Below, piece by piece: positions 1,022 through 24,944 of a DNA stretch of 64,000 nt. A program made the position numbers and the translations under genes. The stretch is from Intrasporangiaceae bacterium URHB0013 (GTDB lineage Bacteria > Actinomycetota > Actinomycetes > Actinomycetales > Dermatophilaceae): positions 124,001 through 188,000 of the forward strand of contig JIBA01000012.1 of assembly GCA_000620545.1 (NCBI GenBank), given 5' to 3'. The stretch's first letter is position 1; every line of letters starts with the position of its first letter. The notes beneath the pieces were generated by a model that made no database searches, had not been told where the DNA came from, and was given only the letters and a program-made list of their open reading frames with translations.

Positions 1022-1022
1022 G

Positions 1023-5681: not shown

Positions 5682-5698
5682 GGGTCACGGTGTGACGC

Positions 5699-9552: not shown

Positions 9553-10785
9553 ATGAGCAACTCTGGCAAGCCTGCCCTGGGGGTGGGGATGGTCGGCTAC
9601 GCCTTCATGGGGCGAGCCCACTCGCAGGCCTGGCGCAACGCACGCAGCTACTTCGACGTCCCGGCGGTCCCGCGCCTCGCCGCTGTCGCCGGACGCAACC
9701 AGGCAGCAGCGCAGGACACGGCGGACCGCTTCGGCTGGGAGTCCGTCGAGACCGACTGGCGGCGCCTGCTCGAGCACGACGACATCGACATCATCGACAT
9801 CTGCACCCCTGGCGACACGCACGCCGAGATCGCGGTGGCCGCGCTCGAGGCCGGCAAGCACGTGCTCTGCGAGAAGCCCCTCGCCAACTCGGTCGGGGAG
9901 GCCGAGGCGATGGTGGCCGCCGCCGAGGCGGCCCGGGCACGCGGCGTCCGCTCGATGGTGGGCTTCACCTACCGCCGGGTCCCGGCCATCGCGTATGCCC
10001 GTCAGCTCGTCGCGGAGGGACGGCTCGGCCGCATCCTCCACGTCCGCGGCGCCTACCTGCAGGACTGGCTCGTGGACCCCGAGTCGCCGCTCACCTGGCG
10101 GCTCCAGAAGGAGCGTGCCGGTTCGGGGGCGCTGGGCGACATCGGCGCCCACATCGTCGACCTCGCCCAGTTCGTGACCGGCGAGCACCTCACCGGTGTC
10201 TCGGCACTCACCGAGACGTTCGTGCGCGAGCGTCCCGTGGCCGACCCGGCGAGCGTCGGGACCGGCGGTATCAGCGCCGCCGCCGCCCAGAACGGCTCGG
10301 CGACCACCGGGCCGGTGACCGTCGACGACGCGGCCGTCCTCGTCTCGCGGATGAGCGGGGGCGCCCTCGCCACCTTCGAGGCGACCCGCTTCGCCAACGG
10401 CCGCAAGAATGCGATCCGCTTGGAGATCAACGGAACCGACGGCTCGCTCGCCTTCGACTTCGAGGACATGAACGTCCTCCACGTCTTCGACGGGCGCGTC
10501 CCGAGCCGCGACGCCGGCTTCGCCCGGGTGCTCGTCACCGAGTCCACCCACCCCTACGTGGCGTCCTGGTGGCCGCCCGGTCACGTGCTCGGCTACGAAC
10601 ACGGCTTCACCCACCAGGCGGTCGACCTGCTGACCGCCATCGCCGAGGGCGCAGACCCCCGGCCTTCCTTCTCCGACGGGCTCCAGGTGCAGCGGATCCT
10701 GTCGGCGGTCGAGACGAGCGTGGAGCGGGAGGGGTCCTGGACCCCGATCGACGGGGCCCACGCCACGTCCTCGGCCATGTCCTGA
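9553..10785 (+). CDS. Gfo/Idh/MocA family oxidoreductase
   Basis: Protein of 410 residues. The N-terminal Rossmann fold has the nucleotide-binding loop GMVGYAFMGRAH (residues 11-22), then the CEKPLAN motif near 100 carrying the catalytic Lys. A DIGAHIVDLAQ segment near 195 supplies the His/Asp pair. These enzymes use NAD(P) to oxidise or reduce a sugar or cyclitol, often at C2 or C3 (inositol, scyllo-inositol, glucoside 3-dehydrogenases). It follows the importer and precedes an isomerase, suggesting cytoplasmic oxidation of the imported compound. The actual substrate is not determined. Confidence 0.9.
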   Translation: MSNSGKPALGVGMVGYAFMGRAHSQAWRNARSYFDVPAVPRLAAVAGRNQAAAQDTADRFGWESVETDWRRLLEHDDIDIIDICTPGDTHAEIAVAALEAGKHVLCEKPLANSVGEAEAMVAAAEAARARGVRSMVGFTYRRVPAIAYARQLVAEGRLGRILHVRGAYLQDWLVDPESPLTWRLQKERAGSGALGDIGAHIVDLAQFVTGEHLTGVSALTETFVRERPVADPASVGTGGISAAAAQNGSATTGPVTVDDAAVLVSRMSGGALATFEATRFANGRKNAIRLEINGTDGSLAFDFEDMNVLHVFDGRVPSRDAGFARVLVTESTHPYVASWWPPGHVLGYEHGFTHQAVDLLTAIAEGADPRPSFSDGLQVQRILSAVETSVEREGSWTPIDGAHATSSAMS

Positions 10786-10882: not shown

Positions 10883-12001
10883 ATGCACGACAACGACGTC
10901 AACCCGCTCAAGCTGGCCAAGGGCCTCGGCCTCAACCGTCGGCAGTTCCTGGCCGCCTCGACCGGCATGGCGGCGGCCGCCGCCGTGACCGTTGCCGGCG
11001 CGGGCGCTGCCACCGCGGCCCCCTCCGGCGCGAACGGGGTGGTCGTGCCGCCCGGCAAGCGCGGCATCATCCTCTACACGGTCCGCGACGCCATCTCGCG
11101 CGACCCCTCCACGAGCCCCTATGCGTCCGGCTTCAAGGCGGTGTTCGAGGAGCTCGGCCGCATCGGCTACAAGCAGGTCGAGTTCGCCGGCTATGGCCAG
11201 CACGCCAACGCCCCCGGCGGCAACGTCAACAACGTCGCGGGCGCGCAGCTCCTGCGCACGTGGCTCGACGACAACGGGCTCGAGGCCGAGGGCAACCACG
11301 GCAACATCCCGTCGGTCATCAACGACACGACGCTCGCCGCGTTCGATGCGGCGTGCGAGACCGCGAACATCCTCGGCATGCAGCACATCGGCACGGGAAG
11401 CGACCCGACGGGCAGCGCCTTCGTGGGGGACTGGGCCGCTGCCGCCGAGCGCTGGAACATCCTCGGTGCCCGGGCTGCCTCGCACGGCCTGAAGCTCTAC
11501 ACGCACAACCACGACATCGCCTACAGCTTCCTGCTGGACAGCGGTCCGCTCGACGCCCTGGGCCGACCGACCCGGTCGTCCGGCATTCGCCGTCTCGAGT
11601 ACTTCCTGGCCAACACCGATCCGCAGTACGTCTACCTCGAGATGGACATCTTCTGGGCGCACGTCGCCAAGTTCAAGCACTCGGCATACACCGCCGCGGA
11701 CGGCTCGACGGTCCAGTCGACCTTCAACCCGCTCGGTGTCGTGCAGGCCCAGCCGATCCGGTTCCCGCTCTTCCACGCGAAGGACGGCGACGCCCGCCCG
11801 GACCTGGCGAACGGCTACGAGATGGTGCCCTTCGGCACCGGCGACATCGACTACAAGTCCTTCCTCACGCAGACCGGCGCAAAGGGCTACCACAACCCGA
11901 TGTACGAGCAGGACACCGCTCCCGGTGGCGCCGCCAACCCGGGCCAGTCGCTGGAGTTCGCACGGATCAGCTACAACAACATGGCCGCCCTGCGCGGCTG
12001 A
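10883..12001 (+). CDS. Tat-exported sugar phosphate isomerase/epimerase-like protein
   Basis: TIM-barrel protein of 372 residues from the xylose-isomerase-like (AP endonuclease 2) superfamily. The N-terminus carries a twin-arginine signal (NRRQFLAAS followed by an Ala-rich hydrophobic stretch and a TAAPS cleavage region near residue 48), so it is probably folded with its metal in the cytoplasm and then exported. Metal-ligand candidates include YLEMDIFWAH near 255 and HAKDGD near 295. GAAGGAG precedes ATG 10883. Relatives are found near ThuA and Gfo/Idh genes in oxidised-sugar pathways. The reaction is unknown. Confidence 0.87.
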   Translation: MHDNDVNPLKLAKGLGLNRRQFLAASTGMAAAAAVTVAGAGAATAAPSGANGVVVPPGKRGIILYTVRDAISRDPSTSPYASGFKAVFEELGRIGYKQVEFAGYGQHANAPGGNVNNVAGAQLLRTWLDDNGLEAEGNHGNIPSVINDTTLAAFDAACETANILGMQHIGTGSDPTGSAFVGDWAAAAERWNILGARAASHGLKLYTHNHDIAYSFLLDSGPLDALGRPTRSSGIRRLEYFLANTDPQYVYLEMDIFWAHVAKFKHSAYTAADGSTVQSTFNPLGVVQAQPIRFPLFHAKDGDARPDLANGYEMVPFGTGDIDYKSFLTQTGAKGYHNPMYEQDTAPGGAANPGQSLEFARISYNNMAALRG

Positions 12002-12103: not shown

Positions 12104-15100
12104 ATGAATGCTACTTCGCTATCCCGGGCGAGGAGGCTGGTTGCCACAACTGCGGCAGCCGTCCTCGCCTGCACGGCGCTCGGCGCCGTGGCCACCCTCC
12201 CGGCCCAGGCCCACGACGGGGTCGACCACGGCTCCGAGCCGGCGCTCGACTGGTCGAACTACGAGAAGATCACGCTCACCAAGGACACCGGTGAGCCGAT
12301 CGACCTGGCCGTGCTGCCCGACCGCCGCGTGCTGACCACCGCCCGCAACGGCGACGTCCGCCTCGTCGATCCCGACACCGGCGTCACCAAGGTCATCAAC
12401 ACCCTCCCGGTCTACAACAACTCGGAGGACGGCCTCCAGACCGTCACCCTCGACCCCGACTTCGCCACGAACAAGTGGGTCTACCTCTACTACGCGCCGC
12501 GCACCATGACGGCGCCCTACCCGACGACCACCCCGACGGGGTCGGCGCCGAACACCCTGCCCGCCGGTGCGGACGCCTCCTACTGGGACCAGTGGAAGGG
12601 CTACAACCAGCTCAGCCGCTTCAAGTGGGACGACGCCGCCGACAAGATCGACCTGGCGACCGAGCAGGTCATCATCAAGGTGGAGGCCCAGCGTGGCCAG
12701 TGCTGCCACGTCGCCGGTGACGTCGACTTCGACGCCGACGGCAACCTCTACCTCTCGACCGGTGACAACACGCCGGCGAGCGCCCCGGGTGCCAACGGCT
12801 TCGCGCCCAACAACAACGCGCCGGGGTTCAACCCTGGCTTCGACTCGCGCCGGGGCGCCGGCAACACCAACGACCTGCGCGGCAAGATCCTGCGCATCCA
12901 CCCCGAGGCCGACGGGTCGTACACGATCCCGGCGGGCAACCTCTTCCCGGCCGGCACCCCCAAGACGCGTCCCGAGATCTTCGTCATGGGCGTGCGCAAC
13001 CCGTTCCGCATCGACGTCGACCCGGCGACCAGCTCGGTGTCGTGGGGCGACTACGGTCCCGACGCCGGCGCCCCTGACCCCCAGCGGGGCCCGATGGGCT
13101 ACGTCGAGTGGATGACCACGGCCACCAACCGTCCGATCAACGGCGGCTGGCCCTACTGCACGGCGGACGCGAAGAACTACAACGAGTGGGACTTCGCCAC
13201 CGCGACGCCCGGTCCGTTCTTCGACTGCGCGGCAGGGGCCAAGAACAACTCGACCCTCAACACCGGCCTCGCGACGGTCCCGCCGGCCACCCCGGCCACG
13301 CTCTACTACGGCGACAACAACACCCACCAGCCGTGGCCGGAGCTGACCGACTTCTCCCCGGCCGGCGGCCAGGGCCCGATGGGTGGTCCCGTCTACCACT
13401 ACGACGCCGCCAACCCGTCGACGACGAAGTTCCCGGCGTACTGGGACCAGAAGGCGTTCTTCGCCGAGTTCTCCCAGGACTACCTGGCGGTCTTCGACGT
13501 GCAGTGGCCGAACGGTCCCGTCGACCACATCACGAACTTCCTCCCCAACGCCGACCTCGAGACGAACGGGCAGCCGATCACCGACAGCCCGATCGACATC
13601 GAGTTCGGCCCCGACGGCTCGCTCTACGTCCTCGACTACGGTGACGGCTTCTTCCGCGCCAACCCGGATGCCGGTCTCTACCGCATCGACTACGCGCCGG
13701 GGAACAAGGCACCGCAGGCGAAGATCGCGGCCACCCCGATCAGCAGCAGCAGCGCGCCGCTGACGGTCCGCTTCGACGCGTCCGGCTCGGTCGACCCGGA
13801 GGGCAAGGCCCTCACCTACGAGTGGGACTTCGACGGCAACGGCACGTTCGACGCGACGGGTGCCACAGCGAGCCACACGTACACCGAGCTCGGTAAGTAC
13901 ACCGCGCGCCTCCGCGTCACCGACGCTGAGGGCCGTCGCGGCCTGACGAGCACATCGATCAGCGTCGGCAACGTCGCCCCGACGGTGACCATCGCGACGC
14001 CGCCGAACGGCGGGTTCTTCGACTGGGGCCAGGCCGTGCCGTTCAACGTCACGACCACCGACCCCGAGGACGGCACCGCGACGGTCTGCTCCCGCGTGAC
14101 GTGGACCTTCGGTCTGGGCCACGACGCGCACGCCCACCCGCTGAGCCAGGGCACGGGTTGCCAGTTCGCGATCCCGACCCCGGCCGACGCGACCCAGCAC
14201 GGCGAGACCGAGAACATCTTCGGCGTCGTCGTCATCACCTACACCGACAACGGCGCGAACGGCCTGGCCGGTGCGACCACCACGGAGCAGCTCGTCCTCA
14301 ACCCGAAGAAGCAGGAGGCCGAGTGGGCCGACGCGACGCAGGGGGTCGAGATCACCGACGACGGCACGGCGAGCGGCCTGCGCAAGGTCACCTCGTTCGA
14401 CGCCGGTGACTGGGTCGCCTGGGACCCGGCGAACCTCGTCGGCGTCACGGGCGTGACGGCGCGTGCCTCCGGCTCGGGCACCCTGTCCCTGCGGTGGGAC
14501 TCGCCGACGGCGGCTCCCTTCGGCACCATCGCGGTCAACGGCTCCGGGTGGACCGACGCGGCAGCCACGCTGTCGTCGAAGCCCACTGGCACCGGACGCC
14601 TGTACGTCACGTCGTCGGGCGGGGTCGTCCTCGACTCCCTCTCGTTCGTGGGTGACGGCGTCGCGGATGTCACGCCCCCGGTTGTCTCGGCGACGTTGAA
14701 CCCGGCGACCCCGAACGGCGCGAACGGCTGGTACACGAGCAACGTCACCGTCACGGTCAACGCGACCGACAACGGCACCGTCGCCTCGCGCCAGCGCTCC
14801 ACCGATGGCGGCGCCACGTGGGTCAACGCCAACACGGCGCTGACCGTGTCGACGGAGGGCACGACCACCGTCCTCTACCGCGCGACCGACAACGGCGGCA
14901 ACGTCTCGCAGGTCGGGTCGGTGACGGTCAAGCTCGACAAGACCCAGCCCACGGTCGCAGTGTCCGGGGTGGCGGACGGCACCGCCGTCGCCAACTCGGG
15001 TGACGTGACGTGGACGGCGACGGACGCGACGAGTGGCATCGACAGCGTGACCGCCGCGGTCGACGGAAGCGCGGTCCCGGCCGACAAGCCGCTGGCTCTG

Positions 15101-15448
15101 TGGAGGCTCTCATTGGGCAGCCACACCGTCGCCGTCACGGCGAAGGACAAGGCAGGCCTGGAGCGCACCACCTCGGTGACGTTCACGACCCGGACGTCGC
15201 TGCCGACCCTGACCGCCCTGACGGAGCGACTGTCCCGCGAGGGACTCGTCACCCCGGCGGGTGAGAAGGAGCTCGAGAAGCGCCTCCAGCAGGCCGAGAA
15301 GCAGGTCGCCGGTGGCCGCACCGCGGCTGCGGTCTCGCAGCTGCAGGGCTTCGTCGACGCGGCGAAGTCCAGCACGAACGTCCGCGACGCGGCGGCCTCG
15401 GCCGCCCTGCAGCGCGACGCCAACGCGGTCATCGCCTCTCTGCGCTGA
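12104..15448 (+). CDS. Secreted multidomain glucose/sorbosone dehydrogenase-like protein
   Basis: Protein of 1114 residues. A Sec signal peptide (~40 residues ending near TLPAQAHDG) is followed by a beta-propeller of the glucose/sorbosone dehydrogenase type (roughly 50-530), with VRNPFRID and VLDYGDG motifs. Next come a PKD domain (DASGSVDPEGKALTYEWDFD near 560), a CBM6/35-like beta-sandwich (near 730), Ig/Ala-rich repeats with VTPPVVSATLNP, and a C-terminal helical FIMAH-type domain (last ~80 residues). It probably oxidises or binds sugars or glycans outside the cell; PQQ dependence is inferred from family. ATG 12104 was chosen because a signal peptide begins there; the frame extends 24 codons further upstream. 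The same FIMAH module closes the ThuA protein at 23784. Confidence 0.85.
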   Translation: MNATSLSRARRLVATTAAAVLACTALGAVATLPAQAHDGVDHGSEPALDWSNYEKITLTKDTGEPIDLAVLPDRRVLTTARNGDVRLVDPDTGVTKVINTLPVYNNSEDGLQTVTLDPDFATNKWVYLYYAPRTMTAPYPTTTPTGSAPNTLPAGADASYWDQWKGYNQLSRFKWDDAADKIDLATEQVIIKVEAQRGQCCHVAGDVDFDADGNLYLSTGDNTPASAPGANGFAPNNNAPGFNPGFDSRRGAGNTNDLRGKILRIHPEADGSYTIPAGNLFPAGTPKTRPEIFVMGVRNPFRIDVDPATSSVSWGDYGPDAGAPDPQRGPMGYVEWMTTATNRPINGGWPYCTADAKNYNEWDFATATPGPFFDCAAGAKNNSTLNTGLATVPPATPATLYYGDNNTHQPWPELTDFSPAGGQGPMGGPVYHYDAANPSTTKFPAYWDQKAFFAEFSQDYLAVFDVQWPNGPVDHITNFLPNADLETNGQPITDSPIDIEFGPDGSLYVLDYGDGFFRANPDAGLYRIDYAPGNKAPQAKIAATPISSSSAPLTVRFDASGSVDPEGKALTYEWDFDGNGTFDATGATASHTYTELGKYTARLRVTDAEGRRGLTSTSISVGNVAPTVTIATPPNGGFFDWGQAVPFNVTTTDPEDGTATVCSRVTWTFGLGHDAHAHPLSQGTGCQFAIPTPADATQHGETENIFGVVVITYTDNGANGLAGATTTEQLVLNPKKQEAEWADATQGVEITDDGTASGLRKVTSFDAGDWVAWDPANLVGVTGVTARASGSGTLSLRWDSPTAAPFGTIAVNGSGWTDAAATLSSKPTGTGRLYVTSSGGVVLDSLSFVGDGVADVTPPVVSATLNPATPNGANGWYTSNVTVTVNATDNGTVASRQRSTDGGATWVNANTALTVSTEGTTTVLYRATDNGGNVSQVGSVTVKLDKTQPTVAVSGVADGTAVANSGDVTWTATDATSGIDSVTAAVDGSAVPADKPLALWRLSLGSHTVAVTAKDKAGLERTTSVTFTTRTSLPTLTALTERLSREGLVTPAGEKELEKRLQQAEKQVAGGRTAAAVSQLQGFVDAAKSSTNVRDAAASAALQRDANAVIASLR

Positions 15449-15614: not shown

Positions 15615-16772
15615 ATGACCGACGAACGAACCGGACTCTGGCTGGTCGGGGCGCGCGGCTCGGTCGCGACCACCGTCGCGACCGGCCTGGCCCTCATCAC
15701 CGCCGGTGGTGCCGGCCCCGACGGCCTCGTCACCGAGCAGCCCGACCTGGCCGGCGCCGGCCTCGTGCCACTCGACCACCTCGTGGTCGGCGGGCACGAC
15801 GTCGCCGAGGTGCCCCTCGTCAAGCGCGCAGCGCAGCTGGCCGACGCCGGGGTCATCCCGCACACGGCCCTGGCGCTCGTGTCCGACGAGCTCGACCGGA
15901 CGTGCGCACGGATCCGCCACGGCCACCGCGGCGGTGAGGAGAGCCAGGCCGAGGCCGTCGAGCGACTGGCGGCCGACATCCGCGCGTTCGCGGAGGCCGA
16001 GTCGCTGTCTCGGGTCGTGGTGGTCAACGTCAGCTCCACCGAGCCCGTCGTCACCGACGATCCGGCCCACGCATCCCTCGCGGCGCTCGAACGCGCCTGG
16101 GCGGCGGGGGAGGCCCCGCTGCCGCCGAGCGCCGTCTACGCGGCCGCCGCCTTCACGGCCGGGGCGGCCTTCATCGACTTCACCCCCTCGACCGGCGCGC
16201 GCCTGCAGGCGCTCGAGGAGCTGGCGGAGCGCCAAGGCGTCCCATGGGGCGGCAGCGACGGCAAGACGGGTGAGACCCTCGTCAAGTCGGTGCTGGCGCC
16301 GATGTTCGCGGCTCGATCGCTCCGCGTCCGCTCCTGGGCCGGCACGAACCTCCTGGGCGGCGGGGACGGCGCCACGCTCGCCGACCCGCAGGCGATGGAG
16401 AGCAAGGCACGCAGCAAGGCCCGCGGCCTCGAGGCGATGCTCGGCCATCCCGTCGACGGGCCCGTGCACATCGACAACATCACCGACCTCGGCGACTGGA
16501 AGACGGCCTGGGACCACCTCACGTTCTCCGGCTTCCTCGGCACGCGGATGTCCATGCAGTTCACGTGGCAGGGCTGCGACTCCAGCCTTGCCGCACCCCT
16601 CGTCATCGACCTCGCGCGCCTCGCAGACCTCGCGCTGCGCCGTGGGGAGGTGGGCCCCCTCCCGGCCCTCGGCTTCTTCTTCAAGGACCCCGTGGGCTCG
16701 GACGAGCACCGCCTGTTCGAGCAGCACCGGACGCTGACGACCTGGGCGAGGGAGCAGGCGACGGCGTCGTGA
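15615..16772 (+). CDS. Inositol-3-phosphate synthase (ebo-cluster type)
   Basis: Protein of 385 residues. A Rossmann NAD loop GARGSVATTVATG (residues 11-23), a VVVNVSSTEP segment and the catalytic-region motif GKTGETLVKSVLAP near 218 mark the myo-inositol-1-phosphate synthase family, which cyclises glucose 6-phosphate using bound NAD. ATG 15615 follows GAGGAGAAG; a longer upstream frame is not used. It is the first gene of a run coupled by overlaps and its stop overlaps the eboC-like GTG. Here it probably feeds a dedicated product rather than general phosphatidylinositol or mycothiol synthesis (inference from context). Confidence 0.85.
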   Translation: MTDERTGLWLVGARGSVATTVATGLALITAGGAGPDGLVTEQPDLAGAGLVPLDHLVVGGHDVAEVPLVKRAAQLADAGVIPHTALALVSDELDRTCARIRHGHRGGEESQAEAVERLAADIRAFAEAESLSRVVVVNVSSTEPVVTDDPAHASLAALERAWAAGEAPLPPSAVYAAAAFTAGAAFIDFTPSTGARLQALEELAERQGVPWGGSDGKTGETLVKSVLAPMFAARSLRVRSWAGTNLLGGGDGATLADPQAMESKARSKARGLEAMLGHPVDGPVHIDNITDLGDWKTAWDHLTFSGFLGTRMSMQFTWQGCDSSLAAPLVIDLARLADLALRRGEVGPLPALGFFFKDPVGSDEHRLFEQHRTLTTWAREQATAS

Positions 16773-17665
16773 CGACGCTGCGCGACCTCGTCGAGCTGGT
16801 CCGTGCACCGGCCGCGCTCACCGTGCCCGGCGACACCCTCGCGGGTGCGGCAAGCGCCGGGTGGCCGGCAGGTGCACGGTCGGCGGTCCTGCCGGTCGCT
16901 TCGACCTGCCTCTACTGGGCCGGCATGGCGCTCAACGACTGGGCCGACCGCCGCACGGACGCCGTCGAGCGCCCGGAGCGTCCCATCCCCTCGGGTCGCG
17001 TGTCGGCCGGGACGGCGCTCGCCGTCGCCACCGGCCTCACGGCCGCCGGCATCACCGTCGCCGCGGTCGGGGGTGGACCTCGCTCTGCGGCGACCGCAGC
17101 CGTCCTCGCCGCAGCCGTGTGGGCCTACGACCTCTCCCCGAAGCAGGGACCCGTGAGCGTCGCGACGATGGCCACCACACGTGGTCTCGACGTGCTCCTC
17201 GGGGCGAGCGCGGGCGGCCTGCCCGGTCTGCGCGCCGCCGCCGTCCCGGCCACGATGGTCGCCGTCCACACCGCCGGCGTCACGGCCCTGAGCCGGGGCG
17301 AGGTCCACGGCGGATCGACGGGTGTGGCGCGTGCCTGCGTCGCCGCGACGACGCTCGTGGCCGCTGCCTCGGCACTGCGCCCGATCCCCGCCGCCGGACG
17401 CGGGCGTGCCGGGGGAGTGCTCGGTGCGGCCGTCTCCGTCGCCCTCACGGGGTCGTATGCCGTGAGCGTCCTCCGCGCCCAGCTGTCCGCTGCGCGCACC
17501 CCCGACGCCCGGACGGTCCGCCGAGCCACGGGCGCCGGCATCCGTGGACTCGTGCCGCTCCAGGGTGCAGCCCTCGCTGCAACCGGCCACCACGCGGCCG
17601 CGCTGGGTCTCGCCGCGTCCGCGCCGATAGGGGCAGCCGCGATGAGACGGGTGTCGGCGACATGA
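16769..17665 (+). CDS. eboC: EboC-like UbiA-family prenyltransferase
   Basis: Membrane protein of 298 residues with 7-9 hydrophobic segments. The first Asp-rich motif NDWADRRTD near residue 50 fits the UbiA NDxxDxxxD consensus, and YDLSPKQGP near 118 matches the family's second signature. UbiA enzymes move a prenyl chain onto a small acceptor at the membrane. The gene begins with GTG 16769 in a GTGA overlap and ends in an ATGA overlap, so it is tightly coupled to both neighbours. EboC of cyanobacteria is linked to export of a secondary metabolite precursor; the acceptor here is unknown. Confidence 0.85.
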   Translation: MTTLRDLVELVRAPAALTVPGDTLAGAASAGWPAGARSAVLPVASTCLYWAGMALNDWADRRTDAVERPERPIPSGRVSAGTALAVATGLTAAGITVAAVGGGPRSAATAAVLAAAVWAYDLSPKQGPVSVATMATTRGLDVLLGASAGGLPGLRAAAVPATMVAVHTAGVTALSRGEVHGGSTGVARACVAATTLVAAASALRPIPAAGRGRAGGVLGAAVSVALTGSYAVSVLRAQLSAARTPDARTVRRATGAGIRGLVPLQGAALAATGHHAAALGLAASAPIGAAAMRRVSAT

Positions 17666-18543
17666 GCCTCCGCTTCGGCTACGGCCTCAACGGGTTCACC
17701 GACCACCGGCTCGAGGACGCGCTCGCCGTCCTGGCCGACCTCGGCTACGACGGCGTCGCCCTGACGTTGGACCACGCCCACCTCGACCCCTTCGCACCCG
17801 ACCTGGCACGTCGAGCGGCCCGGGTCGCCGGCCTGCTGGACCGTCACGGGTTGGGAGTCGTCGTCGAAACGGGAGCTCGCTACGTGCTCGACCCGCGTCG
17901 CAAGCACGAGCCGACTCTCGTGTCCGACTCGGGACGCGGACGCCGGATCGACTTGCTGGACAGAGCGATCCGTGTCGCAGCCGAGGTCGGATCGCCCGCC
18001 GTGTCGTTCTGGAGCGGCATCGCGCCACGCGGGACCACCCGCGACGAGCTGTGGTGCCGGGTGGAGGAGGGCGTCACGTCCCTGCTCCCCGTCGCGGAGG
18101 CCCACGGCATCGACCTCGCCCTCGAGCCGGAGCCGGGCATGTTCGTGGAGCGCATCTCCGACGTGGTCGAGCTGCGCCGCCGCCTCGGGTCGCCCGAGCG
18201 GCTCCGGCTGACGATCGACGTCGGCCACCTGCGCTGCACGGAGGACGCCGACCCGGCGGCCTGCGTCCTCGGCGCCGGCGACCTCGTCGCGAACGTCCAG
18301 ATCGACGACATGCGTCGCGGCGTCCACGAGCACCTGCCCTTCGGCGAGGGCGAGGTGGACTTCCCACCCGTGCTCGCAGCACTTGGGGCCGTCGGCTTCG
18401 ATGGCCTCGTCGCCGTCGAGCTGCCCCGCCACTCGCACGCCGCGCCGTCGCTCGCGGCGTCGAGCCTGGACTTCCTGCGCGGCGCCGAGCGCCAGGCGCA
18501 GGCCGGAACCACGCCGCTACGACCCCAGGAGGTGGGCCGATGA
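17662..18543 (+). CDS. Sugar phosphate isomerase/epimerase-like TIM barrel (ebo cluster)
   Basis: Protein of 293 residues of the xylose-isomerase-like TIM barrel family. Metal-site segments are visible: LALEPEPGMFVE near 155, TIDVGHLRC near 185 and the C-terminal VAVELPRHSH. The N-terminal LADLGYDGVAL is typical. ATG 17662 overlaps the eboC stop and its own stop overlaps the eboA start. It likely acts on the polyol or sugar made or handled by this cluster. Confidence 0.85.
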   Translation: MSLRFGYGLNGFTDHRLEDALAVLADLGYDGVALTLDHAHLDPFAPDLARRAARVAGLLDRHGLGVVVETGARYVLDPRRKHEPTLVSDSGRGRRIDLLDRAIRVAAEVGSPAVSFWSGIAPRGTTRDELWCRVEEGVTSLLPVAEAHGIDLALEPEPGMFVERISDVVELRRRLGSPERLRLTIDVGHLRCTEDADPAACVLGAGDLVANVQIDDMRRGVHEHLPFGEGEVDFPPVLAALGAVGFDGLVAVELPRHSHAAPSLAASSLDFLRGAERQAQAGTTPLRPQEVGR

Positions 18544-19136
18544 GCCCCACGACCATCCAGGACGCGCTCGCGCAGGTGACGATCGACCCGGACTCCATCG
18601 AGCGCCACTTCCCCGCCGCCGCGCGCGCCGCGGCCCGTGAGGGCCGGACCGGGGACGCCGCGCGTGAGGCGATGCTCCTCGCGGTGCCCGGCCCGGCCGC
18701 ATACGTCATCGAGGTCGTGCGTCGGGTCTACGACCACGGCGACGCGGCCGAGCGGCGCGCGGTCCTGCTCGCGCTGCCAGCCCTCGACGCACCCGACCGC
18801 GAGAACGCCATCGGTGACGCCGCGCTGCCGATCGTGCGAGATGCACTGCGCACCAACGACACCCGCTTGGTCGCCGCAGCCCTCGGGCCGAATGCCGCCC
18901 GCCACCTCGACGACGAGGCGTGGCGCCAGGCGGTGCTCAAGGTCCTCTTCACGGGCATCCCGGTCGAGCAGGTCGCCGGTCTGGCGGACCGCGCGGACGC
19001 CGAGCTCGCCCGCATGGTCCGCGACTACGCCGCCGAGCGTGAGGCCGCCGGCAGGGTCGTGCCGCCCGACGCGCGGACCGTGCTCGCCCTGGCCGAGAGC
19101 CGACAGCCCGCCACCCGCCCGTACCCAGCCGACTGA
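18540..19136 (+). CDS. eboA: EboA domain protein
   Basis: All-helical protein of 198 residues. The conserved DDEAWRQAVLKVLFTGIPV region near residue 122 and AALDAPDREN-like repeats near 80 match the EboA family, which has no known catalytic activity and occurs only with other ebo genes. The start is the ATG in the overlap with the upstream gene. It is soluble and probably acts as a partner or scaffold for the other Ebo proteins (inference). Confidence 0.8.
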   Translation: MSPTTIQDALAQVTIDPDSIERHFPAAARAAAREGRTGDAAREAMLLAVPGPAAYVIEVVRRVYDHGDAAERRAVLLALPALDAPDRENAIGDAALPIVRDALRTNDTRLVAAALGPNAARHLDDEAWRQAVLKVLFTGIPVEQVAGLADRADAELARMVRDYAAEREAAGRVVPPDARTVLALAESRQPATRPYPAD

Positions 19137-19145
19137 GGAGCAGCC

Positions 19146-20021
19146 GTGCGCATCTTCGACCCCCACATCCACATGACGTCCCGCACGACCGACGACTACC
19201 AGCGCATGCACGCCGCAGGCGTGCGCGCCGTCGTCGAGCCTTCGTTCTGGCTCGGCCAGCCGCGCACGAGCGTCGGGTCCTTCAGCGACTACTTCGACGC
19301 GCTGCTCGGCTGGGAGCCGTTCCGGGCGTCGCAGTACGGCATCGCACACCACGCGACGATCGGGCTCAACCCCAAGGAGGCCAACGACGCCCGCTGTCGG
19401 GAGGTGCTCGACGTGCTTCCCCGCTACCTCGCGAAGGACCGCGTCGTGGCCGTCGGCGAGCTCGGTTACGACTCGATGACGCCGGAGGAGGACGACGTCT
19501 TCGCCGCACAGCTCGCGCTCGCCGCCGAGCACGAGCTGCCCGCACTCGTGCACACGCCGCACCGCGACAAGCTCGCAGGGACGAGGCGCACGCTCGACGT
19601 CGTGCGCGAGTCGGCACTCGAACCCGGCGCCGTCCTCGTCGACCACCTCAACGAGATGACCGTCGGTGTCGTCGCCGAGTCGGGTTGCTGGATGGGCTTC
19701 TCCGTCTACCCGGACACGAAGATGGACGAGCACCGCATGGTCGAGATCCTGCGTCGCCACGGCCTCGACCGGATGATCGTCAACTCGGCCGCTGACTGGG
19801 GCAACAGTGACCCGCTCAAGACCCGGCGCGTCGCCGAGACGATGCTCGCCGCTGGCTACACCGCCGACGACGTCGACCGGGTGCTGTGGCGCAACCCCGT
19901 CGAGTTCTACGGTCAGAGCGGGCGGCTCGAGCTGCCCGAGACGGAGGCGCCGGCGAGCGAGCTCGTCGGGGCCGGCGCGACGTTCATGGGCAACTCCGTG
20001 CTCCGCGGCGCGAGGGAGTGA
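19146..20021 (+). CDS. eboB: EboB, TatD-family metal-dependent hydrolase
   Basis: TIM-barrel amidohydrolase of 291 residues. The metal ligands expected for TatD enzymes are present: FDPHIHM near residue 5, VGELGYD near 101, LVHTPHRD near 136, DHLNE near 164 and SAADWGNSD near 216. A GTG start with GAGGAG sits 9 bp after eboA. The C-terminal extension past the barrel ends in a polar tail. It should hydrolyse a phosphoester or amide in the cytoplasm; the substrate is unknown. Confidence 0.85.
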   Translation: MRIFDPHIHMTSRTTDDYQRMHAAGVRAVVEPSFWLGQPRTSVGSFSDYFDALLGWEPFRASQYGIAHHATIGLNPKEANDARCREVLDVLPRYLAKDRVVAVGELGYDSMTPEEDDVFAAQLALAAEHELPALVHTPHRDKLAGTRRTLDVVRESALEPGAVLVDHLNEMTVGVVAESGCWMGFSVYPDTKMDEHRMVEILRRHGLDRMIVNSAADWGNSDPLKTRRVAETMLAAGYTADDVDRVLWRNPVEFYGQSGRLELPETEAPASELVGAGATFMGNSVLRGARE

Positions 20022-20024
20022 GCG

Positions 20025-21215
20025 GTGCGCCTGCTCCACCCCGACGGCCAGACCGTCCACGTCGCGTACTGCACCAACGTCCACCCGGGTGAGGACCTCG
20101 ACACGATTCTCGGGCAGCTCGATCGCTTCGCCGTACCGGTACGCCGGCACCTCGGTGCCGACGTCCTCGGCCTCGGCCTGTGGCTGAGCTCGCCCGTCGC
20201 GCGTGAGCTGGCCGGTGACCCCCGCCAGGCCGACCGGTTGAGAGCCGCGCTCGACGAGCGCCGGCTCGAGGTCGTCACCCTCAACGGTTTCCCCTACCGC
20301 GGCTTCCAGGACGAGGTGGTCAAGCAACGCGTCTACCACCCCGACTGGACCGAGCCGGCCCGGCTCGCCTACACGACCGACCTGACCGAGGTGCTCGCGC
20401 GGCTGCTTCCCGACGACGCCGCCCGCGGCAGCATCTCGACGCTCCCGCTCGGCTGGCGGCACCCCTGGTTCGGCGACCGTCAGGTGCTCGCGGCCGAGCA
20501 GTTCGACCGGCTCGCCGACCACCTGCACGCCCTGCGTGAGCGCACCGGTCGCGAGATCCGCGTCGGCGTCGAGCCCGAGCCTGGCTGCGTCATCGAGACG
20601 ACGACCGAGCTGGTCGACCGGATGGCGGGCTGGGACGAGGAGGTGCTGGGAGTCTGCCTCGACCTCTGCCACCTCGCCGTCGGGTTCGAGGACGCGGCCG
20701 TCGCGGTGCCGCGGCTCACCGCCGCCGGCCGCCGGGTCGTCAAGGCCCAGGTGTCGGCGGCCCTGCACGTCGAGCACCCTGCCGACGACGCGACGCGCCA
20801 CGCGCTCGGCGCCTTCGACGAGGACCGCTTCCTGCACCAGACGCGGTCACGCGGGGAGCACGGTCAGCTGCGTGCGCGCGACGACCTCGGCGACGCCCTC
20901 GGCGGCGCGCGACCCCTCGACCCGTGCCCGGGTGGCACCGAGCAGCCGTGGCGGGTCCACTTCCACGTGCCGTTGGACCATGCCCCCGAGTCCCCGCTCG
21001 CCGCCACGACGGGCGACCTGCGGCACTCGCTCGACGTCCTCGTCGGTGGGGACACCGCCCTGACCGACCACCTCGAGGTCGAGACGTACACGTGGACCGT
21101 CGTCCCCGAGGCGGTGCGACCGACCGACGACGCCGCGCTGGCCGTGAGAATCGCCGGCGAGCTCGCCTGGCTCCGCGACACCCTCATCGACCTCGGCCTC
21201 AAGGAGTCCGCATGA
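20025..21215 (+). CDS. eboE: EboE, metabolite traffic protein (xylose isomerase-like TIM barrel)
   Basis: Protein of 396 residues of the EboE family. The N-terminus has AYCTNVHPGEDLD, and the TIM barrel carries VGVEPEPGCVIE near 186, CLDLCHLAVGFED near 212 and HFHVPLDH near 310, which supply a metal site. GTG 20025 lies three bases after the eboB stop. Its 3' end overlaps eboF by ATGA. Eukaryotic plastid and bacterial homologues always occur with EboB/C/F, and the reaction is undescribed. Confidence 0.88.
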   Translation: MRLLHPDGQTVHVAYCTNVHPGEDLDTILGQLDRFAVPVRRHLGADVLGLGLWLSSPVARELAGDPRQADRLRAALDERRLEVVTLNGFPYRGFQDEVVKQRVYHPDWTEPARLAYTTDLTEVLARLLPDDAARGSISTLPLGWRHPWFGDRQVLAAEQFDRLADHLHALRERTGREIRVGVEPEPGCVIETTTELVDRMAGWDEEVLGVCLDLCHLAVGFEDAAVAVPRLTAAGRRVVKAQVSAALHVEHPADDATRHALGAFDEDRFLHQTRSRGEHGQLRARDDLGDALGGARPLDPCPGGTEQPWRVHFHVPLDHAPESPLAATTGDLRHSLDVLVGGDTALTDHLEVETYTWTVVPEAVRPTDDAALAVRIAGELAWLRDTLIDLGLKESA

Positions 21216-22609
21216 CCACCCCGACCACGAAGGTCCTCCTGCTCGACGTCGTCGGCCTGACACCGCGCGCCCTCGCCGACATGCCGCGGCTGCGCCGTCT
21301 CGCCGAGTCGGGCTGGCAGAGCCCGCTCGAGACCGTGCTCCCGGCCGTCACCTGCTCGGTGCAGTCCACGATGCTCACCGGCCGCCCCGTCTCCGAGCAC
21401 GGCGCCGTCGGCAACGGGTGGTACTTCCGCGACCTCGGCGAGGTGTTCCTCTGGCGCCAGCACAACGCGCTCGTCGAGGGGCAGAAGGTCTGGGACGCCC
21501 TGCGCCGCCAGCACCCCGGGGCTCGCGTCGCCAACGTCTGCTGGTGGTACGCCATGGGAATGGACGTCGACTCGATCGTGACGCCGCGTCCGATCTACCA
21601 CGCCGACGGCCGCAAGTCGCCCGACTGCTACACCCGCCCGCCTGCTCTGCACGACCGGCTCACGGACCGGCTGGGCCCCTTCCCGCTCTTCCACTACTGG
21701 GGGCCGACCGCGTCCATCGCGTCGTCCCGCTGGATCATCGAGGCGACCCGACTGCTCCTGCCCGAGCACGACCTGACCCTCTCCTACGTCCCGCACCTCG
21801 ACTACGACCTACAGCGCTTCGGACCCGAGTCGCCCGAGGCCCGCGCCGCCGCGCAGGAGCTCGACGCCGCGCTCACGCCGCTCCTCGACGACGCCGAACG
21901 GCTGGGCGTCAGCGTCATCGTCGTGAGCGAATACGGCATCACGGCCGTCGACCAGCCCGTCGACGTCAACCGGGTGCTGCGCCGCGCCGGCCTGCTCGAC
22001 GTGCACACGCAGGCGGGGATGGAGTACCTCGACCCGTGGGCCTCCGACGCCTTCGCCGTCGCCGACCACCAGGTCGCCCACGTCTACGTCAAGGACGCCG
22101 ACCGGCTCGAGGAGGTGCGCGCCCTCCTGGCCTCCACCACGGGCGTCGACCAGGTGCTCGACCGGGCCGGCCAGGCGGCATACGGCCTCGACCACGAGCG
22201 CAGCGGCGACCTCGTGCTCGTGGCGCAGCCACGGGCGTGGTTCACCTACTACTACTGGCTCGATGACGACCGGGCGCCCGACTTCGCCCGCGGCGTCGAG
22301 ATCCACCGCAAGCCGGGGTACGACCCCGCCGAGCTCTTCTTCGACCCCGCCGACCGTTCGGCGAAGGCGCGCGCCGGGCTCGGTCTCGTGCGCAAGAAGC
22401 TCGGGCTGCGGTATGCGATGCGCGTGGTCCCCCTCGACCCGCGGTGGGTGCGGGGCAGCCACGGGCGCCTGCCCGACGACTCCGAGGACGGACCCGTCGT
22501 GCTCACCTCGAGCGCGGCCCTTCGTCGTGAGACGGTGGCGGCGGCGGACGTCCATGACCTCGTGCTCCAGGCCGCGGGTGTCTCGCTCGAGGCGACAGCA
22601 CACGCCTGA
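21212..22609 (+). CDS. eboF: EboF, alkaline phosphatase/nucleotide pyrophosphatase-fold protein
   Basis: Protein of 465 residues with the phosphodiesterase/alkaline phosphatase fold. LLLDVVGL (D12) and the nucleophile region LPAVTCSVQSTMLTG (T47) are intact. In the metal site, the family's D-x-x-x-H is DYDLQ (D197, Q201) and the usual Ser-Asp-His-Gly is SEYG (E240, Y241), so three ligands differ from classic NPP enzymes. No signal peptide is seen, suggesting a cytoplasmic location. ATG 21212 is in an overlap with eboE. It is the last coupled gene of the ebo block. Confidence 0.85.
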   Translation: MTTPTTKVLLLDVVGLTPRALADMPRLRRLAESGWQSPLETVLPAVTCSVQSTMLTGRPVSEHGAVGNGWYFRDLGEVFLWRQHNALVEGQKVWDALRRQHPGARVANVCWWYAMGMDVDSIVTPRPIYHADGRKSPDCYTRPPALHDRLTDRLGPFPLFHYWGPTASIASSRWIIEATRLLLPEHDLTLSYVPHLDYDLQRFGPESPEARAAAQELDAALTPLLDDAERLGVSVIVVSEYGITAVDQPVDVNRVLRRAGLLDVHTQAGMEYLDPWASDAFAVADHQVAHVYVKDADRLEEVRALLASTTGVDQVLDRAGQAAYGLDHERSGDLVLVAQPRAWFTYYYWLDDDRAPDFARGVEIHRKPGYDPAELFFDPADRSAKARAGLGLVRKKLGLRYAMRVVPLDPRWVRGSHGRLPDDSEDGPVVLTSSAALRRETVAAADVHDLVLQAAGVSLEATAHA

Positions 22610-22660: not shown

Positions 22661-23677
22661 ATGGCACGACCGATCACGCTCTTCACCGGACAGTGGGCGG
22701 ACCTTCCGTTCGAGGAGGTGTGCAAGCTCGCCGGCGAGTGGGGCTACGACGGGCTCGAGATCGCCTGCTGGGGCGATCACTTCGAGGTCGACCGAGCGCT
22801 GGCCGAGGACGGCTACATCGAGTCGCGGCGCGAGATCCTCGACCGCCACGGGCTCAAGGTGTGGGCCATCTCCAACCACCTCGTCGGCCAGGCCGTCTGC
22901 GACGACCCGATCGACCAGCGCCACCAGGACATCCTGCCGCCTGCGGTCTGGGGCGACGGCGACCCGGAAGGGGTGCGGCAGCGCGCGGCGGAGCGCATGG
23001 CCGACACCGCGCGAGCCGCCGCCAAGCTCGGCGTCAAGACCGTCATCGGCTTCACCGGCTCGGCCATCTGGAAGTACGTGGCGATGTTCCCCCCGGTGTC
23101 CGACGCCGTCATCCAGGAGGGGTACGCCGACTTCGCCCGCCGCTGGAACCCGATCCTCGACGTCTTCGACGAGGTGGGCGTGAAGTTCGCCCACGAGGTC
23201 CACCCGAGCGAGATCGCCTACGACTACTGGACGACCGTCGCGACGCTCGAGGCGATCGGGCACCGTGAGGCGTTCGGCCTCAACTGGGACCCCAGCCACA
23301 TGGTGTGGCAGGACCTCGACCCGGCAGCCTTCATCTGGGACTTCAAGGACCGCATCTACCACGTCGACTGCAAGGACGCCCGCAAGCGAATCGGCAACGG
23401 ACGCAACGGACGTCTGTCCTCGCACCTGCCGTGGAGCGATCCTCGGCGCGGCTGGGACTTCGTCTCGACCGGCCACGGGGACGTGCCGTGGGAGGACTGC
23501 TTCCGCACCCTCAACGCCATCGGCTACGACGGCCCCATCTCGATCGAGTGGGAGGACGCCGGGATGGACCGACTCGTCGGAGCGCCCGGAGCGCTGGAGT
23601 ACGTGCGAGCGCTCAACTTCGACAAGCCGGAGGCAGCATTCGACGCAGCCTTCAGCAGCAGCTCCACCACGGACTGA
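22661..23677 (+). CDS. Sugar phosphate isomerase/epimerase-like TIM barrel
   Basis: Protein of 338 residues with a strong AAGGAG ribosome site before ATG 22661. Metal-site segments are [13 protein letters not shown] near residue 185, [11 protein letters not shown] near 210, HVDCKDA near 234 and SIEWEDAG near 292. It resembles isomerases found with Gfo/Idh dehydrogenases and ThuA proteins in pathways for oxidised (for example 3-keto) sugars and inositols. It lies 51 bp after eboF, without overlap, and is followed by a terminator, so it ends the long run of genes. Confidence 0.87.
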
Positions 23678-23783: not shown

Positions 23784-24944
23784 ATGACAACGACACATCG
23801 GCGTGTCGGGCCCGGACGACTGCTCGCCGCCGTGACGGGTCTCGGCGCGCTCGTCCTGGGACTCGGCACAGCACCCGCAACCGCCGCTGACACCGAGGCC
23901 GCTGTCGGAGCCGGGTACAAGGTGCTCGTCGTGGGGAAGACGCTCGGCTTCCGCCACTCGCACATCGACGAGACGACGCATGCGGTCATCGACATGGGCA
24001 AGCAGAGCGGCTTCACCGTCGACGTCTGGGACCCGCCGAACAGCTCGGGAGGATGGTGGGGGCCCGGCTCACCCGGACAGCCCGCGCTCACCCTGCCCAG
24101 CACGCCGTTCACGAGTGCTGACAACCTGTCGCATTACGCGAGCATCATCTTCGCGTCGCCGGTCGACAACACGAACAGCCTCGACCCGGCCCAGCCGCGG
24201 CTGCTGGACGACACCGAGCTCGCTGCCTTCCAGGGGTACATCCGGGGCGGTGGCGGCTACGTCGGGCTACACGCCGCCACCGACACCATGCACACCGTGC
24301 CGTGGTACAGCAAGCTCTCCGGCGGCGGGGCCCGCTTCGCCAACCACCCTGCGCAGCAGACGGCCACGATGCGGGTCGAGGACCCGACGCATCCGTCGAC
24401 CGAGCACCTGCCGTCGGCATGGGTCCGGTTCGACGAGTGGTACAACTACACGTCGAACCCGCGTGACTCCGTGCGCGTCCTGCTCACGCTCGACGAGTCC
24501 ACCTACACCGGCGGCCGGATGGGGGCAGACCACCCGATCGCGTGGTGCCAGAACTTCGAGGGTGGCCGGTCCTGGTACGAGGGCGCCGGTCACGTCGACT
24601 CCTCCTACTCCGACCCCGTGTTCCTCGAGCACCTCAAGGGCGGCATCGAGTGGGCGTCCGGCAGGGTGAGCGGTGGCGGGGACTGCGTGACCTTCAAGGA
24701 GGTCTCGGGACTGCTCGAGGCGGCCGACAACGGTTCGGTGCGAGCCCAGAAGCTCGCGACCCAGCTGGAGGAGCGGCTCGCGGCAGCCGAGGCCGCTGCG
24801 GACGCGGGCGACCGCGATGCGGCGCTGGCCGCCCTGCAGACGGCGCGGGGCAAGGCCAACGGACTGGTCGACGGACACGAGGTCTCGTCCAAGATCGCGG
24901 ATCTCATCGAGTGGCAGACGGGCCTGCGGGCAGCGGGCATGTAG
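23784..24944 (+). CDS. Secreted ThuA-domain protein with C-terminal helical (FIMAH-type) module
   Basis: Protein of 386 residues. A Sec signal peptide of about 35 residues (TAPATAADTE cleavage region) is followed by the ThuA/glutamine-amidotransferase-like fold with KVLVVGKTLGFRHSHI, a GGGYVGLHAATD motif near 157 and NHPAQQTATM near 190. The last ~80 residues form Ala-rich helices like the C-terminus of the dehydrogenase at 12104. ThuA proteins act in disaccharide 3-keto-sugar metabolism. Export and the shared module suggest that it works with that dehydrogenase outside the cell. GAGGGAGATC precedes the ATG. Confidence 0.85.
   Translation: MTTTHRRVGPGRLLAAVTGLGALVLGLGTAPATAADTEAAVGAGYKVLVVGKTLGFRHSHIDETTHAVIDMGKQSGFTVDVWDPPNSSGGWWGPGSPGQPALTLPSTPFTSADNLSHYASIIFASPVDNTNSLDPAQPRLLDDTELAAFQGYIRGGGGYVGLHAATDTMHTVPWYSKLSGGGARFANHPAQQTATMRVEDPTHPSTEHLPSAWVRFDEWYNYTSNPRDSVRVLLTLDESTYTGGRMGADHPIAWCQNFEGGRSWYEGAGHVDSSYSDPVFLEHLKGGIEWASGRVSGGGDCVTFKEVSGLLEAADNGSVRAQKLATQLEERLAAAEAAADAGDRDAALAALQTARGKANGLVDGHEVSSKIADLIEWQTGLRAAGM

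Follow-up and report, generated by a model that had tools for sequence, protein, structure and literature searches.

Organization of the ebo locus

The window, a 64,000-nucleotide stretch of contig JIBA01000012.1 (positions 124,001 to 188,000) from Intrasporangiaceae bacterium URHB0013, contains at 15615-22609 seven co-directional genes on the + strand (Table 1), whose start and stop codons were checked and which follow each other with spacings of -4, -4, -4, +9, +3 and -4 bases. These figures bear out the original prediction of a compact seven-gene ebo cluster joined by 4-base overlaps and gaps of less than 10 bp, and the gene identities that it proposed also stood (profile matches for EboA and EboE, a sister-family match for EboC, general models only for EboB and EboF). 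When linkage was checked in close relatives, all seven genes were found together in each of the nine loci whose EboE is closest (L001-L009, from Terrabacter, Terracoccus, Humibacillus and Intrasporangium). The exact order ino1-eboC-timX-eboA-eboB-eboE-eboF is present in 39 of the 80 named loci (the best 80 of 89 located in a search with EboE of the window), five further loci differing by an extra timX-like match, and again in 16/19 loci of a phylum sample and 17/20 of a class sample (hand-chosen among 76 EboE places, several from one genus), a recurrence that argues against a chance arrangement.

The cluster sits inside a larger array of ROK, importer and sugar-oxidation genes, which extends from 4.4 to 24.9 kb and is co-directional beyond about 5.7 kb; neither this array nor its importer figured in the original prediction. 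The importer upstream would be of the CUT2 type, judging by its three subunits, and the solved chains nearest to its lipoprotein are sugar- and ribose-binding proteins. The likely Tat signal of tim0 scores 18.1 bits on the model PF10518, below its cut-off of 22.7. By eye only, a possible second sugar importer was seen at 1-2881.

Table 1. Genes of the ebo cluster and of the surrounding array, in window coordinates
Feature	Position	Strand	Details
ROK-family repressor, divergent from array	4393..5616 (start provisional)	-	PF00480 199.3 bits for 4396-5616; HMM match 4407-5565
Putative CUT2-type sugar ABC importer, ATP-binding subunit	5744..7222 (longer start 5699 possible)	+	PF00005, two stretches
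Importer permease	7222..8310	+	PF02653 130.1 bits
Importer sugar-binding lipoprotein	8407..9465	+	PF13407 142.6 bits; lipobox by eye
Gfo/Idh/MocA oxidoreductase (gfoidh)	9553..10785	+	PF22725, PF01408
tim0, TIM-barrel protein, likely Tat signal (RRQFL, by eye)	10883..12001	+	PF01261 44.8 bits
gsdh, secreted glucose/sorbosone-dehydrogenase-like; PKD, CBM6 and FIMAH domains	12104..15448	+	Pfam; signal peptide by eye
ino1, MIPS-type cyclase	15615-16772	+	ATG, 385 aa; PF07994 164.4, PF01658 108.5 bits
eboC, UbiA-type prenyltransferase, SCO3242 family	16769-17665	+	GTG, 298 aa; NF045897 339.7 bits
timX, TIM-barrel isomerase/epimerase-like	17662-18543	+	293 aa; PF01261 146.5 bits
eboA, HEAT-like helical-repeat protein	18540-19136	+	198 aa; NF035938 166.2 bits
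eboB, TatD-like hydrolase	19146-20021	+	GTG, 291 aa; PF01026 (TatD_DNase) 59.6 bits
eboE, TIM-barrel, ketose-epimerase/xylose-isomerase-like fold	20025-21215	+	GTG, 396 aa; NF035939 425.2 bits
eboF, alkaline-phosphatase-superfamily protein, altered ligand positions	21212-22609	+	465 aa; PF01663 (Phosphodiest) 217.4 bits
tim2, TIM-barrel sugar isomerase-like	22661..23677	+	PF01261 145 bits
ThuA-domain protein, likely signal peptide (by eye)	23784..24944	+	PF06283 208.3 bits

Identity of the Ebo proteins

Profile searches of the 198- and 396-residue proteins, which the original prediction had named EboA and EboE, matched the former to the EboA_domain model (cut-off 50) and the latter to the EboE model (cut-off 250), so that both of these members of the ebo operon are present; on the narrower EboA_family model (NF035937) EboA reaches 75.1 bits, below the cut-off of 320. 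Its AlphaFold2 model (mean pLDDT 95.0) found no match in the PDB at E <= 0.001; adaptins and alphaRep proteins, which are HEAT-like, are among its best, though weak, matches. The suggestion that EboA is a TPR protein (PMC6282210) was dropped, and the protein is called HEAT-like only. EboC scores 126.5 bits on NF035940 (cut-off 250) and passes the cut-off of 260 of the sister model for SCO3242-family prenyltransferases; its NDxxDxxxD motif is kept in 100/100 aligned EboC sequences, other phyla included (here and below, residue counts refer to near-full-length copies above set scores, the window's own copy included).

No NCBIfam model named for EboB or EboF matched, only general Pfam models. Models built from ebo loci score the window proteins at 545 and 811, respectively, which places them with EboB and EboF, and the same models give 437-512 and 646-726 in ebo loci of Bacteroidota, Pseudomonadota and Spirochaetota, EboB being lower (284) in the actinobacterial locus L147. 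The presumed metal residues of EboB (H7, H9, E105, H136, H167 and D217) are intact in 113/113 sequences. In EboF, Gln201, Glu240 and Tyr241 occupy the aligned positions of a His/Asp/His set that we take to be the metal ligands of phosphonoacetate hydrolase, and they are kept in 116/116, 115/116 and 116/116 aligned EboF, respectively. Because of this replacement EboF is not regarded as an ordinary phosphatase; a role as prenyl diphosphate phosphatase has been proposed for it (PMC5133447). The remaining barrel gene, timX, is fused to eboA in some Pseudonocardiales (actinobacterial xylose-isomerase/EboA fusions are mentioned as data not shown in PMC5133447), and none was found in the eboD-type ebo loci examined here.

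An Ino1-type cyclase in place of EboD

The first gene of the cluster codes for an Ino1-type enzyme, with both MIPS domains (NAD-binding and catalytic) and intact predicted catalytic residues. Its best solved relative is 1u1i (212 bits), and N245, K264, K268, K296 and K357 are kept in 65/65 aligned copies, three of them unlinked to ebo; K268 and K357 correspond to the two lysines changed to alanine in the A. fulgidus Ino1 mutant chains 3qvw and 3qvx, and N245, K264 and K296 are presumably catalytic positions. It is not a mycothiol Ino1, since it scores only 43.6 bits on TIGR03450 (cut-off 638), a model on which a separate, canonical Ino1 elsewhere in the same genome reaches 714 bits. An eboD model found no match at positions 1-34000 of the window, and the genome holds a single dehydroquinate (DHQ)-synthase match, on another contig, which reaches 144 bits on this model (covering its positions 45-336 of 354), against 441-609 bits for the eboD genes of ebo loci. 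Given the canonical Ino1 elsewhere and this weak match, the cluster cyclase appears to be a dedicated extra one in a genome where no eboD was found.

Thus eboD is replaced here by an Ino1-type cyclase and an extra TIM-barrel protein, a substitution that the original prediction did not mention. The cluster shares a compact organization and the eboA, eboB, eboC, eboE and eboF families with the ebo operon ABCDEF (Yurchenko et al. 2016, PMC5133447), from which it differs in lacking eboD, in having ino1 and timX and in the order C-X-A-B-E-F; without EboD, it is classed as a variant and not as the described operon. Likewise, the Nostoc scytonemin cluster (PMC6282210) has homologous EboA, EboB, EboC, EboE and EboF, but there an eboD homologue lies nearby and the context is scytonemin. 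The Ubi-297/EboC prenyltransferases of PMC9235831 are EboC homologues, and that work, as far as its available text goes, counts eboD in the ebo set and includes Saccharomonospora in its comparison, whereas L053 and L054, the loci from that genus here, carry ino1 and gave no match to eboD. The word inositol does not occur in the main text of PMC5133447 or in the available text of PMC6092422, nor do inositol or Ino1 in that of PMC6282210, and searches of open-licence PMC papers turned up no description of Ino1 acting as the cyclase of ebo, a scope that does not prove absence.

The replacement is widespread. Of 151 loci examined, 21 without core eboB, eboE and eboF were dropped, and among the remaining 130, which are not all independent because four pairs represent the same place (L028/L154, L013/L205, L038/L222 and L059/L197), 80 carry ino1, 29 eboD, 21 neither and none both. 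Neighbours were called at fixed score thresholds with models built from the 80 named loci, which favour actinobacteria, and controls gave a few weak matches (SBP 51, ABC ATPases 55-154, timX 45, eboD 137). The sampled genomes include no cyanobacterium; the Bacteroidota sample comprises 21 loci from 24 genomes with EboE (G668 and G575 were left out and G406 is L063), and the class sample also includes loci taken earlier and eight of nine unlinked EboE places, the ninth (L144) being already in the set. A tree of EboB, EboF and EboE requires a single change between the ino1 and eboD types, and L147, the sole actinobacterial eboD-type locus found, groups with the eboD loci, which ties the split to the cyclase rather than to the phylum alone.

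Among 286 genomes of the host's class, EboE (above cut-off in 73) and PF07994 (in 72) occur together in 69, EboE alone in four, PF07994 alone in three and neither in 210 (Fisher p 2.6e-57, not corrected for kinship). At E <= 0.001 EboE is found in 77 of these genomes, four of which (G1052, G1125, G1184 and G1228) have partial matches below the cut-off and were left out (13 such places in all). PF07994 lies 2.6-5.7 kb from EboE at 67 of the 76 EboE places above cut-off, in a distance list that omits weak or split PF07994 pieces. As the swap is one ancient event, this co-occurrence reflects a single replacement that was retained, which limits its weight as evidence. Exceptions are L187 (genome G1030), without ino1 and timX, L161 (G279), without a linked cyclase, and the Bacteroidota locus L180, where eboD is absent nearby; the genome of L015 gave zero PF07994 matches. 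We expected eboD in the four class-sample genomes with EboE and no PF07994, but none carries it: in the 20 kb examined, their only ebo gene is a relative of EboE that stands by itself next to a CUT2-like importer.

In seven Lentzea-type loci ino1 is separated from the ebo genes, yet all seven genomes keep a copy, which nests within the ebo-Ino1 clade. A CUT2 importer lies directly upstream of eboC in 7/7 of these loci, and a polyprenyl synthetase gene is present in six and partial at the edge of the seventh (Pfam-confirmed for L048 only). The idea that such loci lost ino1 and import the cyclitol was rejected as stated, because of these retained copies. Away from ebo, an ino1 copy lies with gfoidh, tim2 or gsdh in G1160, in G1115 and in six of the seven Lentzea-type genomes (the short stretch around the copy of the seventh gave only an ABC ATPase match), which would suit an Ino1 that is only a neighbour with its own job, such as inositol supply for phosphatidylinositol or mycothiol, unrelated to the ebo chemistry. 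This is very improbable, however, because the genome has its canonical Ino1 above the mycothiol-model cut-off, and because the cluster ino1 overlaps eboC by 4 bases, never shares a locus with eboD and tracks EboE across the class.

Sugar genes and proposed function

Of 37 actinobacterial loci sampled, 22 have at least one of five sugar-array genes in the vicinity of ebo (10/18 and 12/19 core loci of two samples), compared with 0/20 control windows (single stretches from arbitrary places of 20 ebo-bearing genomes). All five are absent from the other 15 actinobacterial loci and from 19/19 Bacteroidota and 3/3 Pseudomonadota core loci; among the named loci, two of the four Bacteroidota core ones (L064 and L065) have gsdh beside ebo, against 0/19 in the Bacteroidota sample. 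No PqqC was seen in the host genome or in 16 of 19 other ebo-bearing genomes, which may thus lack the usual cofactor of GSDH.

The linkage would fit a catabolic array in which an imported or externally oxidized sugar or cyclitol is degraded with the help of the ebo genes, and levoglucosan-degradation loci (PMC10066097) have in common with the window Gfo/Idh oxidoreductases, PF01261 barrels, an ABC importer and ROK regulators, although ebo genes and Ino1 are not mentioned in the available text. Such a role is nevertheless unlikely, since the cluster includes two biosynthetic enzymes, the cyclase of the inositol-phosphate-synthase family and the membrane prenyltransferase, and since so many ebo loci lack the sugar genes.

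We consider that the ino1-type ebo operon has an even chance of being devoted to the synthesis of a prenylated cyclitol attached to the membrane, an isoprenoid-cyclitol having been proposed as product of the ABCDEF operon (PMC5133447). The Ino1-type enzyme would form a cyclitol phosphate, in the simplest case by turning glucose 6-phosphate into inositol phosphate, in the step carried out in other ebo operons by EboD, a dehydroquinate-synthase-fold cyclase thought to use sedoheptulose 7-phosphate; the ring may not be inositol, because not every Ino1 homologue is an inositol synthase (the 'Five-membered-cyclitol-phosphate synthase' 6k96 is a weak relative of the cluster enzyme, 50 bits). Ring tailoring might be performed by TimX and EboE, as sugar-isomerase/epimerase-type barrels, and by the TatD-like EboB, and EboC would add the isoprenoid in the membrane. 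The HEAT-like solenoid EboA could serve as scaffold, and EboF, with its alkaline-phosphatase fold and altered ligands, may bind or process a phosphorylated intermediate. EboC homologues farnesylate quinolines in vitro (PMC9235831), the sole Ebo biochemistry met in the literature; the 14 acceptors reported there were all aromatic, so cyclitols are not covered. In the window, the ebo unit is embedded in sugar import and extracytoplasmic sugar oxidation, possibly under ROK control, and probably serves that process. This reading draws on the mutually exclusive cyclases, on their tree and the co-occurrence with EboE, on the dedicated extra Ino1, also retained in the Lentzea-type genomes, and on the intact residues of Ino1 and EboC. 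Gene content and order, the conserved active sites, the exchange of the cyclase and the linkage are observed; the individual reactions, the product, the ROK control and the role are deduced from them.

Scytonemin is an unlikely product, because the Pfam-searched genes between 4.4 and 25 kb belong to other families, so this part of the original prediction, that the ebo cluster likely handles another compound, gained support; metabolite transport as its role fared poorly. A system moving an actinobacterial product across the membrane would parallel Nostoc, where an ebo deletion strain lacks scytonemin and precursor transport was proposed from the mutants (PMC6282210), and EboA and EboE are named 'metabolite traffic' proteins by NCBI. 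None of the seven proteins, however, matches an exporter or flippase family, the transporter just upstream is importer-like, and by family the cluster offers sugar/cyclitol enzymes and a prenyltransferase, which makes transport as the primary role rather improbable. It is not fully separate from biosynthesis, since a lipid carrier made by ebo could underlie transport. As a much more speculative extension, to which we give little credence, the isoprenoid-cyclitol could be a membrane-anchored helper (an electron or sugar carrier, or a cofactor) for exported oxidizing enzymes, which would be the secreted GSDH-like proteins of actinobacteria and, in cyanobacteria, the scytonemin enzymes of the periplasm, its ring being built by either of two unrelated cyclases, EboD or Ino1 with TimX. 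The lack of PqqC matches in most of the genomes and the gsdh genes at L064 and L065 would agree with this idea.

The ebo product was unknown when the operon was named in 2016, and no later answer was found in the literature searched. That an enzyme of known class has naturally taken the place of the usual cyclase narrows this question, suggesting that the pathway needs a cyclized sugar phosphate. The ino1-type variant also lends itself to direct experiments in tractable actinobacteria, and its neighbours for sugar import and extracytoplasmic oxidation offer a physiological context outside scytonemin. In Streptomyces coelicolor, SCO3242, the namesake of the prenyltransferase family matched by EboC, and SCO3243, given as myo-inositol phosphate synthase, appear in a list together with the CDA antibiotic cluster (PMC3610822, whose available text gives expression values only for the pair); they probably represent the same ebo gene pair as eboC and ino1.

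The seven-gene cluster and its cyclase

The cluster (ino1, eboC, timX, eboA, eboB, eboE and eboF, in which timX codes for a TIM-barrel isomerase/epimerase-like protein) is real, conserved and compact, its co-directional genes being spaced by -4, -4, -4, +9, +3 and -4 bases, as the original prediction had described. Profile searches, which had been proposed as a check, assigned the protein of 198 aa to the EboA domain family and that of 396 aa to EboE, each with a score over cut-off, and linkage is kept in close relatives: the nine nearest named loci (Terrabacter and kin, EboE identity up to 92%) retain the cluster. The prenyltransferase encoded by eboC scored above the SCO3242-family cut-off and below that of EboC proper, and EboB and EboF matched general TatD and phosphodiesterase models only.

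In the described ebo operon, eboD codes for a sugar-phosphate cyclase with a dehydroquinate-synthase fold that is thought to use sedoheptulose 7-phosphate (PMC5133447, excerpted text), whereas the first gene of this cluster codes for an Ino1-type cyclase and the model search found no eboD in positions 1-34000 of the window. The sole DHQ-synthase match in the genome lies on another contig (144 bits against the eboD model), and a canonical Ino1 (714 bits) is also separate from the cluster, on another contig. The solved structures closest to the cluster Ino1 are the Archaeoglobus and Bacteroides enzymes 1u1i (212 bits) and 7nwr (157 bits), respectively; the mycobacterial enzyme 1gr0 (41 bits) is distant. 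N245, K264, K268, K296 and K357 are present in 65/65 aligned Ino1 copies; K268 and K357 align with the positions at which the mutant chains 3qvw and 3qvx carry alanine instead, and N245, K264 and K296 presumably have catalytic roles. As far as these residues show, the cyclase is catalytically intact. The cluster is a variant of the ebo operon, not a separate kind of system. A second Ino1 subfamily (L188, L194, L198 and L199; 312-343 bits to the ebo-Ino1 model) is found away from ebo, with Gfo/Idh-like and timX-like genes close by.

Distribution of the two cyclases

Per-gene models built from 80 named loci were run on 151 loci, 130 of which contain the core genes eboB, eboE and eboF. Among these, ino1 was found in 80, eboD in 29, neither in 21 and both in none; the absence of loci with both cyclases was first noticed in the named set and confirmed by the later samples.

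Cyclase type at core ebo loci by sample
Sample	Core loci	ino1	eboD	Neither
Named loci	67/80	45	8	14
Actinobacterial phylum sample	18/19	16	1	1
Class sample	19/20	19	0	0
Class exceptions	4/8	0	0	4
Bacteroidota	19/21	0	18	1
Pseudomonadota	3/3	0	2	1

A ready explanation is available for 18 of the 21 loci with neither cyclase: contig ends (L017, L024, L029, L191, L192), ino1 elsewhere in the genome (seven Lentzea-type loci), an ino1-type match of 351 bits elsewhere (Streptomyces L022 and L023), an additional ebo copy whose genome has ino1 at its first copy (L144), an 84-bit ino1 relic at the ebo locus of genome G1160 (L189), whose full ino1 copy sits in a separate sugar-oxidation locus (L190), and eboD just beyond the fetched DNA (L059 and L197, which are one and the same site). 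L015, L180 and L187 remain, as does L161, which falls below the core definition.

In a quick maximum-likelihood tree of EboB, EboF and EboE from 57 chosen loci, a single change separates the eboD side (16 rows: 15 eboD, one neither) from the ino1 side (41 rows: 36 ino1, five neither). Since one change is enough, the cyclase exchange is most simply one old event, retained afterwards. L147, the sole actinobacterial eboD-type locus, groups with the eboD loci, its branch being long and its placement less sure; its genome is outside the class, and its genes run in the order D-B-E-C-F, with no eboA match. timX occurs in 77/80 ino1 core loci vs no eboD core locus, so TimX came with the cyclase swap. 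In some Pseudonocardiales TimX and EboA are fused in a single frame (442 aa in L048, 470 aa in L033), a fusion mentioned as data not shown in the excerpted text of the paper naming ebo (PMC5133447).

EboE matched in 19 of 396 genomes of the phylum sample (18 above cut-off), and 17 of these have a PF07994 match at a distance of 4.3-5.3 kb, the other two being G381, which carries L147, and G279. PF07994 matched in 89/396 genomes, and outside the class many of them have no EboE, so that the tie is limited to the class and does not extend to the whole protein family. Within the class (286 genomes), 73 have EboE over cut-off and 72 PF07994 (both 69, EboE only 4, PF07994 only 3, neither 210; Fisher p = 2.6e-57, a value that ignores kinship), and 67/76 EboE places over cut-off have PF07994 within 2.6-5.7 kb. 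EboE matched in 24/296 Bacteroidota-sample and 3/299 Pseudomonadota-sample genomes, centres included.

The prediction of eboD in the four EboE-only class genomes failed: each has a lone EboE relative with no other ebo gene, and these are not ebo clusters within the 20 kb fetched. Stand-alone EboE relatives that lack further ebo genes are L183-L186, lying beside CUT2-like importer genes, and L077-L080, matching only about the first 240-256 EboE residues, with an ABC ATPase gene near.

Sugar-type genes around the cluster

Features of the window in and around the cluster
Feature	Positions	Strand	Location
Possible second sugar ABC importer: binding protein, two permeases (by eye)	1-2881	+	
Divergent ROK repressor gene and CUT2-type sugar importer	4393-9465		directly upstream of sugar-oxidation and ebo array
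Gfo/Idh oxidoreductase			upstream of cluster
TIM-barrel protein, likely Tat signal			upstream of cluster
Large secreted GSDH/PKD/CBM6 protein			upstream of cluster
Seven-gene cluster	15615-22609	+	
eboF	21212-22609	+	in cluster
TIM-barrel protein and ThuA protein			downstream of cluster

At least one of the sugar-type genes gsdh, tim2, tim0, gfoidh and thuA scored over fixed thresholds on the fetched stretch at 36/67 named core loci, 10/18 of the phylum sample, 12/19 of the class sample and 4/4 class exceptions, and at 0/20 control windows of ebo-bearing genomes, 0/19 Bacteroidota and 0/3 Pseudomonadota core loci. This linkage, of which the full array in the window represents one version, is therefore common in actinobacteria and absent from the other samples. 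Levoglucosan-degradation genes have a comparable neighbourhood of oxidoreductases, TIM-barrel proteins, ABC importers and ROK regulators (PMC10066097, excerpted text), and for this reason the ebo neighbours are read as sugar import and oxidation. The Lentzea-type loci (L048-L052, L056, L076) include a polyprenyl synthetase, which Pfam confirmed for L048, and their CUT2 importer is directly upstream of eboC.

GSDH-family enzymes are known to use PQQ. PqqC was found in 3/20 ebo-bearing genomes, and neither in the genome of the window nor in 14 control genomes; because the controls lack it, nothing but the three matches indicates that the search works. This scarcity weakly supports the ebo product being a helper molecule for exported oxidising enzymes.

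A putative prenylated cyclitol pathway

From the protein families, a plausible mechanism can be proposed in which the Ino1-type enzyme would form a cyclitol phosphate, TimX, EboE and EboB would modify it, and EboC would prenylate the product in the membrane, with EboA as a possible helical scaffold. The EboE structure model (pLDDT 91.8) has ketose epimerases and xylose isomerases as top fold matches, the presumed metal residues of EboB are intact in 113/113, and EboC keeps its NDxxDxxxD motif. An isoprenoid-cyclitol idea for ebo is already in the excerpted text of PMC5133447; the present data add that a cyclase with a different fold can take the place of the usual one, a point in favour of a cyclitol being the essential input. 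Against a prenylated cyclitol stand that the swap is a single event, that Ino1 relatives are capable of other rings, that some loci have no cyclase nearby, that the eboD prediction for EboE-only genomes failed, and that the activity demonstrated to date for EboC relatives is the prenylation of quinolines (PMC9235831, excerpted text).

EboF keeps the phosphatase-superfamily fold and not the usual His/Asp/His ligand set; the ligand positions are Gln201, Glu240 and Tyr241, nearly invariant in an alignment of 116 EboF sequences that span several phyla. Two Streptomyces loci (L022:18190-21105, L026:1-2151) have, near ebo, adenylation/carrier-protein modules of the non-ribosomal-peptide-synthetase type fused to a beta-lactamase-fold domain.
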